From Rhizophagus irregularis (taxonomy: Eukaryota; Glomeromycota; Glomeromycetes; Glomerales; Glomeraceae), in assembly GCF_026210795.1 (NCBI RefSeq), contig NC_089431.1, positions 5,146,001-5,210,000 of the forward strand: a stretch of 64,000 nucleotides of DNA, read 5' to 3'. Under the pieces are notes generated by a model. The model did no database searches, was not told where the DNA came from, and was given only the letters and a program-made list of their open reading frames with translations. The position numbers and the translations under genes are program-made. Of this stretch, positions 3,992-22,045 are shown one piece after another. The first letter of the stretch is position 1. Every line of letters starts with the position of its first letter.

Positions 3992-5721
3992 TTAATTTCT
4001 TTTAGTACTACAGTCTAAATATATTTTAAGTTAATACAATATTATTATTTTTAAATCTTATCGGTTATTAGATTACTACTTTAATTTATATCATACCATT
4101 ATCTTTTTTGTCTTCAGTTAAATCATTTTCATATTTTCTTTTACCTTCAAAAGAAATAATATACAGTTATTAATATTTACATAAACTAAAAAAAATAAAT
4201 TATAATTAATTTTACCAGTAGGTCCCATGTTATTTTTCTGATAATAGTTAAATAGTTCTAAATAAAATCAAGGTAAATACTGTGTATTTCATATTTGAAC
4301 AAAACCTTATATTTATTTTACCTAAATTAATAGATTGACTTCTTGAACTTCTTAAAGATATTGCAGATTGAATCATGCCGCTTAAATTTCTGCTCTTGTA
4401 AATTGCATTTGGATTATTTGTTACAGGTCCAATATCTGATGATTTTACAATTTCGGTTGGGTTTTTATTATCGCAATTTTTCGATTCCTCCTTATATATT
4501 TTATCAATTTTGTCATATATATCAGTAGCATGTGGCCTTTTTTCTGGATCGGAATGCCAGCATTCTTCCATTAGTTCAATATAGCCGTTAGGTGCATTTG
4601 TTACAATTGGTGGTCGTAAACCATCACAAATATTAATAATAAGTTCTGTATCATGACTTCGGTTCCAAAAAGGTCTTCTACCTGTCATTAGTTCCCACAT
4701 AATCATTCCAAAACTATATATATCTGAAGCTTTAGTATATTTTCGTCCTCGAAAAATCTCTGGAGCCATATAAGGAATAATTCCATAATTTTCATAACAT
4801 GAAGAATCAGTTGCAGATTTACTTATACCCAAATCACCTATTGTTATTTCTTCAATAAAAAATATATCTTCTTTACCAAAAAATATATTTCCACTGTGGA
4901 AATCCCTATGGATAATATCTACGTCATGTATACTGGCAAGTCCTTGTATTATTTTTTTCAAGTTCTCTAACTTTTCATACCAACCAACATTATGAAAACA
5001 ATTAGCTATGTGGCTAATCAAATCACCTGAGTCATAATATGGCATGATAATAATAATTTCTTGAGAATTAGGATCTTGAGTAATTCCAAAATATTTACAT
5101 ACATAACTATTAAAATTAGAATACTTTTCATAATTATTTTTCCGTTTTGAAGAATAACCATAAAATATCTTGAGCTAGAATTTAAAAACGATTAGTAATT
5201 AATTATTTATTTTAAATTAGGATTAGTTTATTTAATGAAATATTTACCTCATTCAACTCCTTAGATGTGATGTTATTAGAATTATTAAGTTTTTTGAGGA
5301 CAACTGTATAATTACTCTTACGAATGCTATTTTTATAATTCCAACCAATAACTGGACCATTAATCCAAGTGGCTTTATAAACTTTACTAAATCCTCCTTC
5401 AGCAATAAAAACTATGTCTTTGAATTGATCATAAGGAACAAATTCCATTTTTCCTGCATTTTTAACTAGACTAATTTGAGTATTTCTGATAAAATTATCA
5501 ATAACTTCGTTTCCACTTTTTTTCACCTCATATGACATTACTTTGTAACAAACGTGACAAATCTTAGGACTTTTTTCTGCAGGTTTTCTTCTTTTATTGC
5601 ATTCGTCACATTTTCTCTTTTTGTATTTTGATTTAACAATGGTTTGTGTAGGTTGAATTAAAGACGTATCGTTTGACAATATAAAATCAATTTTACAGTC
5701 ATAGTCTGTTATTTGTTTCAT
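3992..5721 (-). CDS. Zinc-ribbon protein kinase, tail truncated by a stop codon
   Basis: Five coding exons on the minus strand: 5721-5248, 5174-4322, 4257-4216, 4144-4097 and 4014-3992, giving 479 residues. C38, C41, C55 and C58 form a CxxC...CxxC zinc-ribbon-like pair. The kinase domain follows: glycine loop AEGGFSKV (107-114), VAIK-type Lys143, catalytic HRDFHSGN (His247-Asp249, Asn254), DLG in place of DFG (272-274) and APE (295-297). All residues needed for catalysis are present, so a Ser/Thr or Tyr-like kinase is expected. The paralogue at 19990-22013 keeps reading where this copy has TAA at 3994-3992 (AAA in the paralogue), removing 38 C-terminal residues outside the catalytic domain. 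Exon borders were set by splice sites plus agreement with the paralogue; exons 3-5 are short and individually less certain. Confidence 0.75.
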
Positions 5722-5765
5722 GTTTTTTTAAAGGAAAAATTAGTCTTTTAGTTTGTTAAGAAAAC

Positions 5766-7642: not shown

Positions 7643-10600
7643 ATGGATTCTTTTAATTCTTTTATCAAAAGTGTTAAAGAGCTGATTAAGTCATGTGATT
7701 GTGATTATGAATGTAATGCAAAGCGGTTTAAACAAAATTTCAAAAATTGGACTAGTGAAAATTATTATCTTGATAAGTTTATTCAAGATACTCAGCTATC
7801 AGATCATAATTATAATTTTAGGCCTCAAGCATTAGAATGGATAACTTATGATAGACTTTATAATATTAAATATACCGGTCATCGTAAATACGGAGAAAAT
7901 TGGGTTGATGCGTACAGAGCAAATTGGATTGATGGATGTATATATAGATGGGATAATAATAGTCAAAATTGGGAAAGAAATGATCAAAATTTGTTTGTAA
8001 CTCTGGTAATTCCGAAAATTTTAATCCCGTCAAGAATTATGGAATCTATAAGTGAGGTACAATAAATTTATCAAAAGTTTCATTTTTTTGTGAATTAAAA
8101 TATAAATTAATCGCATTGTACTGTGTCATTTTGTAAAAAAAAATTGTTATTTGTTTTTAAAAAAAAATATGGTTAAGAATTTTATTTTACTAATATTTCT
8201 AACTTTAACATATTATAGATTGCAGTATCTCATAAAGTTTATGGAATAACTCAAAATCCAGAAACCAAGGATTATGTGATAATTTTGGATAATGATATAT
8301 GTTTAGAATGTGAATATACCTGTAATGCAATACATTTTCGGCGAAATTTTGAAAATTGGACTAGTGGTAATAATGATATTGATGAATTTGTTAAAAATAC
8401 TCAACTATCAGTTCATAAAGTTAATGAAACATCATATGCGATAGAATGGATACCTTATGATAGACTTTATGACATATATAATGAAGAGTTTGGCAAAATG
8501 CGCAGAGGAAATTGGATTGATGGACATATAAGTATTAGTGAGAATAGTTCATCTAAATTGAGTGATAATTGGGATAACAACAATCAAAATTGGAAAAGAG
8601 AAAATCAAAATATGTTTGTAATTCTAAAAATTTTAAATAATCCAGCAAGTATTACATTAGAACTTATAAATAAGGTATGATAAATTTGTCAAAACTTTTA
8701 TTTTTTTTGTGAATTATAATATAAATTAATTACATTATACTGTGCCATTTTATGAAAAAAATTGCCAATCGTTTAAAAACAAATAGTTGTCATATTAATA
8801 TTTCTAATTTTAATATATTATAGATCGCGGTACCTTTTAAAGCTTATGGAATAACTCAAAATCCAAAATCCAAAAACTATATGGTAGTTTTGGGTTGTAT
8901 ATGTAATTATACATGTAATGCAACACATTTTCACCGAAATTTCAAAAATTGGACTAGTGGTAATAGTGATATTGATGAATTTATTCAAAATAATCAGCGA
9001 TCAGTTCATAAGAATAATGATATCTTACAATATGCAGTAGAATGGATACCGTATGATAGACTTAATAATATTAAATATATTGTAGAAGATGTTGAGTTTG
9101 GCAAATTGTACAAAGCAAATTGGATTGATGGATATATACAGCACTGGAGTGATGTAAATAAAAATTGGAGAAGAGAGGGTCAAAATATGCGTGTATTTCT
9201 GAAAATTTTAAACAATTCAGCAAGTATTACATTAGAATTTATAAATAAGGTAAAAGTTACGTGATCACTAACCGTTTAGTTAAAAATTTACTAATATTCT
9301 TCATTTTTATTATATTGTAGATTGTAGTGCCCAATGAAGTTTATGGAATAACTCAAGATCCAAAAACCAAGAATTATATTGTGGTTTTGAAAGATATACA
9401 TAAAAAATATAATAGTGTGTATAATTCAAAACGTTTTCGACAAAATTTCAAAAATTGGACTAGTGGTAATAGTGATATTGATAAATTTATTCAAGATGTT
9501 CAAAAATCATATATAAATAATGTATTAGAATGGATACCTTATGATAGATTTTATGATATCCAATATATTGCAAAAGGTGGATTTGGAAAAGTATATAGAG
9601 CAAATTGGATTGATGGTTATATAAATGATTGGGATGACTATAATCAAAATTGGGAAAGGAAGGATCAAAACATGGTTGTAGCTCTGAAAAGTTTAAATAA
9701 TTCAAAAAATGTTACATTGGAATTTATGAATGAAGTAAGTTTATTTAACTATCCTTAGTAATATTTTTAAATTTTTAATATTAATACTTATTTATTAATA
9801 TACAGATTACATTACATTACAAAGTAAATTTGCACAAATCTGTTATTAAACTTTATGGAATAACTCAAGATCCAAAAGAAAAAAATTACATTATGGTTTT
9901 GGATTATGCAGAGCATGGAAATTTACGAAATTATTTAGATACTAATTATAATGAATTAAAATGGAATGATAAGATCAATTACTTACATAGCATCGCACAT
10001 GGACTTAAAGTTATTCATGAAAAAAAATTAATTCATCGAGATTTGCATATTGGTAATTTACTAAGGCGCAAAAATCTTACTTGTATAACCGATTTAGGAT
10101 TATGTAAACCTGCAGATTATAATGCATCAAAAAATATAAAAAATAGTGTTTATGGCGTTTTACCTTATATTGCCCCTGAAATTATACGAGGTCAAAATTA
10201 TACCAAAGCTGCAGATATTTATAGTTTTGGTATAATTATGTATGAAGTAATTTCTGGATTACCTCCATATTATGATGTAAGCCATGACATAAGTTTAGCA
10301 AAAAAAATTTGTGAGGGACTTAGACCAAGGTTTAATATTAAAGTACCAAAATTGATTGTACATCTAATTAAAAAATGCTTGGATGCAAATCCATTAAATC
10401 GACCAAATGCAGAAGAAATTAAAAAAACTTTAAGCCAATGGCTTAAAGAATCAAGTGATTTATTGTATGTTAGTGATCTTAGTAATTATACAAAAATGCA
10501 AAAACAAATTAAAGGAGCAGATAAAATAAACAACAGTTCATCAAGTAACAGTAAATCTTCAACAAATTTAGGAGTATCATATAAAGCTCATTCAGAAGCT

Positions 10601-11251
10601 ATTTATACCAGTAGATTACTTAATTATAATAATCTTCCTGAGCCAAAAAATTCTGATGATTATTATGAAGAAAATGATAATATAATTAGCGTGAAATTTT
10701 CAGGTATTTTTTTATTAAAAATAAAAATTTCATGTTTAATTGTAAATAAAACTAATAAGATTTTAATTATTAAATAGAATCCTTACAAATTGATATTTCT
10801 CAATTGAAAAATAATAATTTTCTTGAATTAAAAAATTATAAAAAAAATGACAATATTAACATGGAACCCTCAAGTATGTTTTTTTAAAAATAATAAAATT
10901 AATTATAAATTACAAATTAATACTTTTTTCATTTAAAATTAATAAAAAAATTTTTTTCTGGATCCAGATAATTCTAACTATTCTTACGAAAAAAGTGATA
11001 ATATGATTAATATGAATTCTTCGGGTATTGATTAATAAAAAAAAAATATTCAGATTATTTATTTAAAAAACACTAATTTTTTATCCATTAAATAGAATCA
11101 CTTCAAGTTGATATTTCTCAGTTGAACATTCATCAAGATGGTAACTATTTCTTAAACACAAATAAAAAACAGAGTTATTTATAATATACTTATTTTACCT
11201 GTTCATTTTTTAGAACAAAATAACAAATCTAAAGGCAAAGAAAAAATTTAG
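7643..11251 (+). CDS. Protein kinase with four tandem N-lobe modules
   Basis: Nine exons: 7643-8056, 8219-8674, 8824-9249, 9321-9734, 9806-10703, 10778-10873, 10968-11024, 11096-11140 and 11214-11251, giving 947 residues. Exons 1-4 each encode a module CNAxxFxxNFxNWTSGN...DIDEFIQ...EWIPYDR...ANWIDG...QNM.V.LK.LNN, i.e. the linker and N-lobe of this kinase family; exons 2-4 begin with the hinge piece YGITQxPxxKxY. Only module 4 has a full glycine loop AKGGFGKV (516-523) with Lys555 and Glu566. Module 1 lacks both glycine loop and Lys; modules 2 and 3 keep LK but have degenerate loops (EEFGKMRRG, VEFGKLYKA). Exon 5 carries the C-lobe: HRDLHIGN (647-654), DLG (666-668), APE (693-695). Exons 6 and 8 (ESLQIDISQL, ESLQVDISQL) are also repeats of each other. 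N-lobe exons are phase 0-0 and tail exons phase 1-1. The final three exons are the least certain. Confidence 0.8.
8219..9734 (+). repeat. Tandem exon-intron duplication inside the kinase gene
   Basis: Three direct units, each an acceptor, the hinge piece and an N-lobe, start at 8219, 8824 and 9321, a period of about 605 then 497 bp, with the intron carried along. The next acceptor at 9806 opens the C-lobe exon whose first 30 codons match the start of each unit. The junction in every unit falls just after the hinge residues V-L, so the copied segment ran from the hinge back through the N-lobe. Confidence 0.75.
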
Positions 11252-13912: not shown

Positions 13913-15513
13913 TTAAAAAAGCATATTTCCATTATATTCACTATAAAATCCCCCTGGAATTCTTACCTTTGGTTTTGGATTGTTGTTACTTTGATCATTA
14001 AATGCCCCTGGAATTACCTCTGGTTTTGGATTTTGATCACTAAATGCCCCTGGAATTATTACCCCTGGTTTTGGATTGTTATCACTTTGATCACTAAATG
14101 CCCCTGGAATTATTATTGGATTGTTGTTACTTCGATTACTACTACTTCTAAATGACCCTGGAATTACCCTTGGTTCTGGATTCTTGTCGCTTTGATCAAT
14201 ACTTCTTCTAAATAACCCTGGAATTGCCCCTGGTTCTGGATTGTTGTTACTTTGATTACTAGCTCTTTTTGATTTCCGCTGTCGTGCCTTTCGTCGTCTT
14301 GGAAGTATCTCTGGTTCTGGATTGTCGTTACTTTGATTACTAGTTCTTCTGGATATTGTTAGCTCTGAAAATACCTCTGGGTCTGGAATGTCATTATTCT
14401 GATTGCTGGTACTTTCGAATAACCCTCGTACTGGAAATATCTCTGGGTCTGGATTGTCATTATTTTGATTGCTAGTGCTTTTAATTACCCGTGATAATGA
14501 GGGCTCTTGATTGTCGTTACCTTGATTACTGGTTCCGATTATCCGTGGATTTGAATTGATATCGCTTTGATTACTAATTCCTCTAATTATCCGCGGTTCT
14601 GGTTGATTACAATCATGATCCAAAAAATATTCAATCAAACTTTCATACATTTCTTCAGGAATAATCTTTTTGTATGGGTGAACCTTATGCAAGAACTCTT
14701 TATGAGTAAAATCAGTAAATCCAATAAAAGAAATACATTTCTGCAAAGTATTTCTTAAAGCGTTAAAATCATCATTTGAAAAACTTGTATAATCCGAAGA
14801 AAGTTCAGGATTTTGAGCAACACCCCATTTAAGTACATAATCCCAAACTTGAACCGTACTCATATCAATATTATTATTTTGAATAATAGAGATTAAACAT
14901 TTTTCTGGAATTGAAGTAAAGTCAGGTGAATTAAAAATTTTTTCTGGTTGTTCAGATATTAAATTTGTACAAAACATTCGAAGGTCCAAGAAAGAATCAT
15001 TTTCAAAACTTAATTGATATATTGAACTTAAATTTTGTTCTAACCAATTTGTCTTGTTTCTAATTAAAAAAGATTGTAAATGGGGAACTAGTTCTTGAAG
15101 ACTTAATTCATTTGCGCTGATCAAAATTTTAATAATGTCTGAAGTATCACATTCTTCTAACAAAATCTTTCCACCATAAATATACCTAAATATTATTTTA
15201 ACGTAAATTAAGAATAAATTTATTAAAAAATAATAACGTATTTATAAATTACTTACCTAAGAATTATTTGAAAAGTTTCGGGTAAAATATTTGGTAATTT
15301 AATATTAACCAAAGTTTCATCATTTTTCTTTTTATTAGTTGATAAAATTCTTCTCAAATAAGGTGAACGATAATTTAAAATAATTATATGAGCACGGAAT
15401 ATTCTTACGTAAGGGTCATTACCAACTTCAATTGTAATGTCATAATATTCATCGTCATCCAAAATTTCAAGCAAATTTTGTGATAATTTTGGTAAAAATT
15501 TATTTTCATTCAT
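13913..15513 (-). CDS. BTB-BACK protein with a long Asn/Pro-rich repeat tail
   Basis: Exons 15513-15257 and 15185-13913 give 509 residues. BTB (MNENKFLPKLSQ..., YYDITIEVG, FRAHIIIL) and BACK (to about residue 280) are intact, and YIYGG follows the intron. No TLDc domain is present. Residues about 290-500 instead hold ten or so imperfect repeats built on SNQSNNNPEPxVIPGxF with a basic patch (RRRKARQRKSKR) in the middle, likely disordered. The gene is head-to-head with the TLDc gene at 16338, and its closest relative is 25145-26551, which has the same BTB-BACK part but an unrelated repeat tail. Function: probably a Cullin-3-type adaptor by family; the tail's role is unknown. Confidence 0.85.
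13930..14560. repeat. Coding minisatellite in the BTB tail
   Basis: Imperfect direct repeats built on CCTGGAATTA-CC-CTGGTTTTGGATT-TT-TTACTTTGATCA with spacing of roughly 60-80 bp, always a multiple of three in effect, since the frame stays open across the whole array. Confidence 0.6.
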
Positions 15514-19989: not shown

Positions 19990-22013
19990 TCAAAGATTAA
20001 TATCGAAATCATTTTCTATGGTAATATATTCTATATATTAATCAAAATTATGTTAATATTTTCATGTAAGCAACAAGAAAATAGTATATTTGCTTACCAT
20101 TATTATTAAAATTTATATCGATATCAAATTTGATTTCTTCTGAAAGATAATCTAAAGATAATATTAAATTTGATTAAATCATAATTATGAAATTAATATA
20201 TTATTAATAAAAAATAGTCACCATTATTTTTATTTTCAAATAATTTTTTTCTTTTAATGGAACCTACATAGTATAAAATATTAATTTGTATCATGAGTTT
20301 AATAGATTGTCAACATAATTCAATTTTATATCATACCACTATCATTTTTGTCTTCAATTAAATCATTTTCATATTTTCTTTTACCTTTAAAAGGAATAAT
20401 ATACAGTCATTAATATTTACATAAATTGACAAAAAAAAAATAAATAAATAAATTATTAATAGTTACCAGTAGATGTCTTGTTGTTTTTCCGATAATAATT
20501 AAATTGTTCTAAATAATTAATTTAAAATAAATAAAATCAAAAGCTAAATATTATGTATATTATGGATACAATTTTTTTACATAATATACCAAACCTGCTA
20601 TATTTCCTAAGTTAATAGATTGATGACTTCTTAAACTCCTTAAAGACATTGCAGTACTGATCATGCCGCTTAAATTTCTACTCTTGTAAATTGCATTTGG
20701 GTTATTAGTCGTTACAGGTCCAATATCTGATGATTTTACAATTTCGGTTGGGTTTTTATTACAGGAATTTTTCCATTCCTCGTCTTTCATTTTATCAATT
20801 TTGTCATATATATCAGTGGCATGTGGCCTTTTTTCTGGATCGGAATGCCAGCATTCTTTCATTAATTCAATATAGCCGTTAGGTGCATTTGTTACAATAG
20901 GTGGTCGTAAACCATCAAAAATTTCAATAATAAGTTCTGTATCATGATTTCGATCCCAAAAAGGTCTTCTACCTGTCATTAATTCCCACATAATTATTCC
21001 AAAACTATATATATCTGAAGCTTTAGTATATTTTTTTCCTTGAAAAATCTCCGGAGCCATATAAGGGATAATTCCATAATTTTCATTACATGAAGATTCA
21101 GTTGTAGATTTACTTATACCCAAATCACCTATTGTTATTTTATCAACAAATACAATATTTTTATTACCAATAAAGATATTTCCGCTGTGGAAATCCCTAT
21201 GGATAATATTTGCGTCATGTATATTGGCAAGTCCTTGCATTATTTTTTTCAATTTTGCTAACTTTTTACGCCAACCAACATCATAAAAACAATTAGTTAT
21301 ATAATTGATCAGATCACCTGAATCATAATATGGCATGATAATCATTATATTTTGAGAATTAGGATCCTGAGTAATTCCAAAATATTTGCATACATAATTA
21401 TTATTAGTATGATACTTGTAATAATCATTTTTCTGTTTTGAAGAATAGTTATAATATACCTTGAGCTATAATTTAAAAAGTTTAGTAATTAATTTGTTTA
21501 TTTTAAATTGGAACTTTTTGGTTTAAATAGAATATTTACCTCGTTCAACTCCTTAGATGTGATGTTATTAGAATTATTAAGTTTTTTGAGGACTACTGGA
21601 TAATTACCCAAACGATTGCTACTTCTATAATTCCAACCCCTAACTGGACCTTTAATCCAAATGGCTTTATAAACTTTACTAAATCCTCCTTCAGCAATAA
21701 ATTCTATGTTTTTGAATTGATCATAAGGAACAAATTCCATTTTTCCTGCATTTTTAACTAGACTAATTTGAGTATTTCTGATAAAATCATCAATAACTTT
21801 GTTTCCACTTTGTTTTACATTATATCTCTTTACTTCATAACAAACATGACAAATCAGATGACTTTTTTTTGCAGGTTTCCTTCTTTTATTACATTCGTTA
21901 CATTTTCTCTTTTTGTATTTTGATTTAACAATGGTTTGTGTAAGTTGAATTAAAGACGTATTGTTTGGCAATATAAAATCAGTTTTACATTCATAATTTG
22001 TTATTTGTTCCAT
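19990..22013 (-). CDS. Zinc-ribbon protein kinase, intact copy
   Basis: Seven exons on the minus strand: 22013-21540, 21465-20595, 20508-20467, 20384-20337, 20263-20222, 20151-20098 and 20030-19990, giving 523 residues. The layout matches the copy at 3724-5721: CxxC pairs (C38, C41, C55, C58), glycine loop AEGGFSKV, VVLKK lysine, HRDFHSGN, DLG, APE, then a polar tail of five small exons ending in NDFDINL. All introns after exon 2 are phase 1, so each tail exon can be skipped without losing frame. At the end of exon 2 the donor used in the other copy (TTAG/GTAAAA) is mutated to TTAGGAAATA; the next usable GT is 12 nt downstream (GCAG/GTTTGG), adding four residues. Kinase activity is expected; substrates unknown. 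Confidence 0.78.
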
Positions 22014-22045
22014 GTTTTTTTATAAAGGAAAATTAGCCTTTCAGT

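Follow-up and report, generated by a model that had tools for sequence, protein, structure and literature searches.

A gene of Rhizophagus irregularis holds four tandem modules, each made of a family linker and the N-lobe of a protein kinase, ahead of one C-lobe. The initial annotation described this arrangement in one gene; it belongs to a large gene family of the same genome. The observation is real, and the family is confirmed to follow a strict last-module rule, in which the module adjoining the C-lobe alone retains the complete set of N-lobe catalytic positions. We propose that each array is one gene encoding one long polypeptide, in which an expandable series of N-lobes and linkers that would not bind ATP precedes one working kinase. 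This reading, made from the DNA sequence, has in our estimate a probability of about 0.55.

A kinase gene with four N-lobe modules and one C-lobe

The window, i.e., the whole stretch of 64,000 nucleotides that was analysed, lies on contig C3. Between positions 7643 and 9734 of its plus strand, four phase-0 exons of 138, 152, 142 and 138 residues are free of stop codons, have lengths that are multiples of 3 and each carry the family linker and an N-lobe; the C-lobe exon begins at 9806. In exons 1 to 4, the inner acceptors (three) all read AG and the four donors read GT. The features of the gene are the following:

7643–8056, +: exon 1; start Met, Cys-containing linker, pseudo-N-lobe 1 (without glycine loop, beta3 Lys lost)
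8057–8218, +: intron 1; phase 0, 162 nt
8219–8674, +: exon 2; beta4-beta5 of module 1, linker, pseudo-N-lobe 2
8675–8823, +: intron 2; phase 0, 149 nt, 84% identity to intron 1 over 70 nt
8824–9249, +: exon 3; beta4-beta5 of module 2, linker, pseudo-N-lobe 3
9250–9320, +: intron 3; phase 0, 71 nt
9321–9734, +: exon 4; beta4-beta5 of module 3, linker, competent N-lobe
9735–9805, +: intron 4; phase 0, 71 nt, at the position of the intron of single-module kinases
9806–10703, +: exon 5; full-length alphaC-beta4 segment, beta5, single C-lobe, start of the tail
10778–10873, 10968–11024, 11096–11140 and 11214 to the stop (11251), +: small C-terminal tail exons, proposed from the splice model only

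The module DNA is mutually repeated (a 170-nt family in four copies, 60–74% identical to the reference copy), and this repetition, together with the reading of the exons, bears out the initial annotation in placing a linker and an N-lobe in each of exons 1 to 4. The phase-0 introns that it had proposed between the modules agree with the exon lengths and the splice sites, and its product of 947 residues is exactly what the splice model gives when exons 1–4, the C-lobe exon and the four small tail exons are joined (948 residues with one alternative last acceptor). The competent N-lobe of exon 4 contains KGGFGKVY and VALK, and Glu is its final codon. EEFGK replaces KGGFGK in exon 2, which has VILK, and exon 3 has VEFGK and VFLK; in both, the alphaC Glu is changed to Lys. 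KGGFGKVY, VALK and the alphaC Glu are found in module 4 alone, in agreement with the earlier claim that the usable glycine loop is restricted to this module, and the beta3 Lys, on which the annotation was silent, is also gone from module 1. Exon 5 carries the C-lobe motifs HRDLHIGN, DLG and APE. In Pfam searches of the window gene, PF07714 matched module 4 weakly (E = 0.032) and the C-lobe exon strongly (E = 2.2e-41, profile positions 60–258), and no kinase match was obtained for modules 1–3. The tail exons are themselves tandem-duplicated in part (window 10628–11133, +: 102 nt at 73% and 68 nt at 76%).

The repeat unit compared with single-module kinases

Single-module members of the family are found in the same genome, and eleven of them (nine fetched and two from the window) were compared with the arrays. 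Their first exon encodes a Cys-bearing linker and the N-lobe up to the alphaC Glu, and is followed by an intron and by beta4-beta5 with the C-lobe; the linker motif NWTSGN..IDKFIQ, the intron position and the catalytic residues are common to both gene types. Inner array exons are ordered differently, with beta4-beta5, a shorter Cys motif (C-x2-C-x3-C), helices with NWTSGN..IDKFIQ, beta1-beta3 and alphaC. This order, compared with that of the single-module genes, indicates that the duplicated DNA spanned the linker and the intron up to the end of beta5, so that one complete N-lobe is divided over two adjoining exons. The copied unit proposed initially (linker, beta1-beta3, alphaC, intron, beta4-beta5) is supported by this comparison.

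Visual inspection shows four linker Cys in 10 of the 11 single-module kinases. The remaining one, L036 (1982–2392, +), has an array-like linker with three Cys, and either is what remains of an array that lost all modules but one or is related to the arrays' ancestor. The two in the window, at 4251–5727 (−) and 20563–22019 (−), are similar to each other, lie ∼16 kb apart and have another type of linker (CDECNKRRKP..CHVC and CNECNKRRKP..CHVC); their aligned DNA is largely identical, with a mean column identity of 93%. Between them, at 13913–15241 (−), the window holds an ORF that matches BACK (BTB/Kelch) below threshold (E = 0.0084) and ends in low-complexity NPEP..VIPG repeats.

The 138 inter-module introns measured have a median length of 78 nt (for those of 30–400 nt), and their acceptors are TAG in 130 cases, CAG in 5 and AAG in 3, the three AAG being doubtful. 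Of 20 last modules, 19 end in the codon GAG and one in GAA; of the 140 upstream modules with a readable donor, 94 end in AAG. An imposition of the Glu to Lys change by the splice site was rejected as both GAG|GT and AAG|GT occur and GAG is kept in 19/20 last modules. The segment between alphaC and beta4 also differs between the two kinds of module: 15–19 residues precede GITQ in the exon that follows a competent N-lobe (30 arrays with a match; none in L013), compared to mostly 8 (2–12) in the module exons that follow pseudo-N-lobes, indicating that this part is shorter in the latter.

A family of arrays across the genome

The genome searched comprises 146.7 Mb on 32 contigs. Module 4 as the query gave at least 150 scored matches (the best 150 of 4945 candidates), a junction query gave at least 150 (the best 150 of 3576), and the two lists joined contain at least 237 distinct modules, a figure identical by coincidence to the number of upstream ORFs considered below. 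Among the matches listed, modules occur at about 57 loci (56 and an array on contig C9) on 16 contigs, where a locus is defined by a junction match or by at least two adjacent modules, with a merging distance of 4 kb; merging may fuse neighbours, and some loci are supported by one junction match. Contig C2 bears 35 of the 57 merged array loci among the matches listed, mostly at about 4.8–5.9 Mb, as if this stretch were a nursery of the array family. Genome-wide, the linker motif was counted 670 times (none in the reversed control) and the intact loop motif 303 times (none in the control). The upstream-type beta3 motif was counted 227 times (27 in the control); as it has 78 matches in a local set holding 149 upstream ORFs, the genome likely contains a few hundred upstream modules. 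No relative was found in the viral contigs searched with module 3.

Two sets of sequences were read, the 30 fetched array regions being chosen for clustered matches and not at random. The first set, with the window and 19 loci that have a C-lobe and L011 that has none, provided 20 last, 149 upstream and 2 single modules; the second, fetched later, comprised 10 arrays and L039 (11 last and 88 upstream modules) plus 9 single-module genes. L039 had been fetched as a presumed single kinase, and three module ORFs were found in it, the middle one incomplete. L011, with about 14 modules and no C-lobe within the stretch, is outside the 31 arrays, and its upstream ORFs are inside the 237. Counts refer to ORFs of at least 30 residues and take in fragments of broken modules, and a "first" module is the first in its stretch, as L006, L010, L018, L019 and L024 probably extend further upstream. 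The 31 arrays read with their C-lobe have 3 to about 15 modules and a single C-lobe each; L005 is the largest, with 15 modules when fragments of broken modules are counted once.

Only the last module keeps the catalytic residues

Four catalytic positions were scored in each N-lobe. All four are present together in 30 of the 31 last modules and in the 11 single-module kinases, and in none of the 237 upstream ORFs, of which 17 keep three. The exception among last modules, L028, lacks a scored Glu owing to an alignment gap, and its sequence reads INEV there. The single-module kinases have every position in 11 of 11 cases; the counts for the other two classes are:

Second loop Gly: last 31/31, upstream 15/237
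Ala or Val of VAxK: last 31/31, upstream 16/237
beta3 Lys: last 31/31, upstream 209/237
alphaC Glu: last 30/31, upstream 87/237

With the Lys set aside, since most upstream ORFs keep it, the alphaC Glu (kept in 87) distinguishes the two classes least well. Replacements in upstream modules are recurrent: the loop Gly is changed to Asp in 87/149 ORFs of the first set and 31/88 of the second, and the VAxK Ala to Ile, Asn or Thr in 124/149 and 57/88, respectively. The second set is less uniform, with shortened loops in several arrays (such as L024, L026, L027 and L030). The beta3 Lys, the WIDG motif and the linker with its Cys and helices are retained in most upstream modules. The third loop Gly is Ser in the last module of L014 in the first set and of one array in the second. 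At E ≤ 0.1, PF07714 was matched by 15 of 20 last modules and by none of 20 middle modules; as the Pfam kinase models miss upstream modules, annotation would probably list these as unknown sequence.

The C-lobe has its catalytic Asp in 31/31 arrays, within HRD or, in L021 and L030, HQD. The metal-binding D.G motif is DMG or DLG and not DFG in 30 arrays, the pattern being unmatched in one, and APE is present in all 31. A second C-lobe, which would make a whole pseudokinase domain, was not found in any of the 31 arrays read. The earlier statement that the gene has one C-lobe and that the last N-lobe alone keeps the catalytic residues holds in every array read. With this shared rule and a module that recurs across the genome, the arrangement of the window gene is no product of chance.

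Upstream modules have open frames and are partly constrained

In the first set, 140 of 149 upstream ORFs reach 75% of the module length or more. The median distance between an upstream module and its nearest neighbour is 0.095, and a simulation of 10% neutral change gave about 3 stops expected per module and left 4% of modules stop-free. The dN/dS of upstream modules is 0.75 (95% interval 0.62–0.86; pairs within arrays, bootstrap over 19 arrays), and that of last modules is 0.43 (0.38–0.47; pairs across 20 arrays), with 0.15 for beta3, 0.29 for alphaC and 0.46 for the hairpin; the comparison is uneven, since pairs within arrays are set against pairs across arrays. Within arrays, the upstream values are 0.58 for beta4-beta5, 0.64 for the linker, 0.67 for loop-beta2, 0.45 for WIDG and 0.55 for beta3, all with upper limits below 1, and 0.69 for the Cys motif, whose interval spans 1 (0.37–1.19). 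The beta2-beta3 hairpin (1.52; 0.92–2.62), alphaC (1.16; 0.78–1.66) and beta1 (1.00; 0.66–1.42) are higher. When upstream modules are compared across arrays, WIDG and hairpin together have 1.25, alphaC 1.15 and the remainder 0.42–0.62, including 0.55 for beta1. The linker and most of the sheet are held in upstream modules, and beta1, alphaC and the hairpin are free. The high overall ratio and the value of 1.00 for beta1 indicate that the constraint is weak. The hairpin values suggest diversifying selection. Values above 1 for recent pairs in a table binned by pS were set aside as biased by the binning.

Modules broken by a frameshift or a stop were found in L005, L006 (two), L022, L028 and L030, with the last modules intact. 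The C-lobe of L009 is divided between two frames. These defects, including that of the L009 C-lobe, reflect recent damage, assembly error or skippable exons.

Arrays have conserved ends and a locally expanding middle

In a tree of the modules, the closest neighbour of 27 of 31 last modules is the last module of another array, and that of the remaining 4 is an inner module from the same array; 62 of 80 upstream modules drawn at random are nearest to one from their own array. When only the N-lobe half is used, each of the 31 last modules has another last module as its closest neighbour. For the linker half, the closest neighbour is a last module in 8/31 cases, an upstream module in 22/31 (10 of them in the same array) and a single-module kinase in 1/31. 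These different neighbours indicate that the last exon is a mosaic, whose linker evolves with the upstream modules and whose N-lobe is held. Near-identical modules inside arrays point to recent duplication. Exon duplication, as first proposed, is correct but incomplete: entire arrays also appear to have been duplicated, their ends being conserved and their middle expanding locally.

Fold predictions

AlphaFold2 models were made from six window proteins only, and as exons were modelled, beta4-beta5 precedes beta1 in them. Exons 3 (pLDDT 64.2, pTM 0.62) and 4 (pLDDT 62.4, pTM 0.60) have the same strand order, with N-lobe-like strands in exon 3 at this pLDDT of 62–64. With VIA-align, the best 50 rows were all kinase chains for both exons, which align best to kinase N-lobes; the best Z score was 4.1 for exon 3 (EGFR, 59 residues, 3.0 Å) and 3.8 for exon 4, used as control. 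Foldseek gave no significant match against the PDB (best E = 0.52). Since the N-lobe that is intact in sequence does not outscore its degenerate counterpart, a low Z is little evidence against an N-lobe fold, and the structural result is a weak one.

Discussion

We suggest that the ancestor was a two-exon kinase, with the linker and the N-lobe up to the alphaC Glu, an intron, and beta4-beta5 with the C-lobe. A duplication that started with the linker, crossed the intron and stopped at the end of beta5 would have added an exon running from beta4-beta5 through a linker to beta1-beta3 and alphaC, i.e., one unit of linker and complete N-lobe; with the intron in phase 0, each added copy leaves the frame intact. 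Catalysis would have been retained by the unit adjoining the C-lobe only. In the upstream units, ATP-site residues would have been lost (the second loop Gly, the VAxK Ala and, in many cases, the alphaC Glu), and the stretch from alphaC to beta4 would have become shorter by about 9 residues. All units would be spliced together into one chain and the upstream ones would fold as N-lobes, forming a set of non-catalytic binding modules, variable in copy number, that could recruit partners to the single kinase or restrain it. The fast-changing beta2-beta3 hairpin would probably be the contact surface. The damaged arrays, among them L039 with its incomplete middle module, count against this proposal, since one chain with all modules implies a broken kinase in at least some of them; so do the weak constraint, the low pLDDT of the models and the lack of a significant Foldseek match. 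The broader idea that an N-lobe without a C-lobe has turned into a repeat module, multiplied through duplication of phase-0 exons into arrays of up to ∼15 that are non-catalytic except for the last unit, have fast-evolving hairpins and serve a single kinase as a diversifying recognition array, that dozens of genes in this plant symbiont are built in this way, and that the architecture is undescribed, we put forward tentatively, as possible but rather doubtful.

Three other explanations start from genes that are real. Upstream units might be products of near-neutral expansion, in which unequal crossing-over adds frame-neutral exons that merely must not disturb the kinase. The upstream dN/dS of 0.75, with 1.00 for beta1, 1.52 for the hairpin, 1.16 for alphaC and an interval including 1 for the Cys motif, would be expected from it, as would internal modules with nearest neighbours mostly in their own array, near-identical modules left by recent duplication, and loops that decay differently, being shortened in second-set arrays such as L024, L026, L027 and L030. 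It accounts less well for the constraint on linker, beta4-beta5, loop-beta2, WIDG and beta3 (0.45–0.67, upper limits below 1), for a beta3 Lys kept in 209/237 ORFs and for the recurrent changes of the loop Gly to Asp (87/149 and 31/88) and of the Ala to Ile, Asn or Thr (124/149 and 57/88), and we judge it unlikely, if still a serious contender. If the modules were instead cassette exons, chosen one or a few per transcript to give isoforms that share the C-lobe, the 0-0 phase of the module exons, with which any skip keeps the frame, and the persistence of broken modules beside an intact last module would be easily understood. However, an upstream module in place of the last would make a kinase without at least one, and usually two or more, of the four catalytic positions (0/237 complete), and exon 1 carries its own pseudo-N-lobe, so that isoforms starting there always hold one dead N-lobe. 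The alphaC-beta4 segment is also shortened after pseudo-N-lobes, as if matched to the preceding module. We judge such exon choice unlikely but, like near-neutral expansion, still a serious contender.

Donor cassettes, a reservoir of upstream modules from which gene conversion would renew the linker of the active module, would explain the mosaic last exon, with its linker half nearest to an upstream module in 22/31 arrays and its N-lobe half nearest to a last module in 31/31; but ordinary concerted evolution predicts the same pattern equally, and the open frames and kept splice sites of the upstream modules are left unexplained. We consider this very improbable. An assembly artefact or pseudogene debris is close to refuted: single-base frameshifts affect a few modules, in one case next to a homopolymer, but the median divergence of upstream modules from their closest neighbour is 9.5%, the module recurs on 16 contigs at dozens of loci, and one order is common to the 31 arrays that were read.

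Should the arrays be translated in the way we read them, half a domain of a well-studied enzyme family would be a free repeat unit, in which the abilities of a kinase N-lobe could be tested directly in the absence of ATP and of a C-lobe. Part of the large kinase expansion in arbuscular mycorrhizal fungi would also gain a concrete structure and, if an array is made as one chain, the arrangement would represent an unusual way of building a signalling protein. The expansion of tyrosine/serine-threonine-kinase-like (PF07714) genes in R. irregularis has been published, and the available portions of these papers concern expanded kinase families, tandem gene copies and methylation, with half-domain arrays inside genes unmentioned there (PMC6123716, PMC8647823); the C-lobe of the arrays is of the same PF07714 type. 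No description of kinase N-lobe arrays was found in the literature searched, which was mostly without subscription papers, was without preprints and was available in part as excerpts, and the terms looked for do not occur in PMC3937382.

Three known systems bear comparison. The JH2-JH1 pair of JAK is a pseudokinase-kinase fusion, and such fusions repeat whole kinase domains, usually as two units. Tandem kinase proteins of plants, such as Yr15, are treated in the part of PMC6170490 available to us. As in JAK and Yr15, dead kinase units would here precede or accompany a live one in one predicted chain; in contrast to them, only N-lobes are repeated, up to about 15 per C-lobe. Mutually exclusive tandem exons, of which Dscam is an example, are likewise homologous, arranged head to tail and matched in phase. 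The use of tandem duplicated exons in mutually exclusive splicing is described in the excerpt seen of PMC9741552; unlike such exons, those of the arrays have the residues of an active enzyme in the last copy only. Finally, the arrays resemble exon-encoded repeat proteins, a general type with fixed ends and an expandable middle, in their phase-symmetric exons, conserved end modules and locally duplicated middle, but differ from them in repeating one half of a globular enzyme domain.
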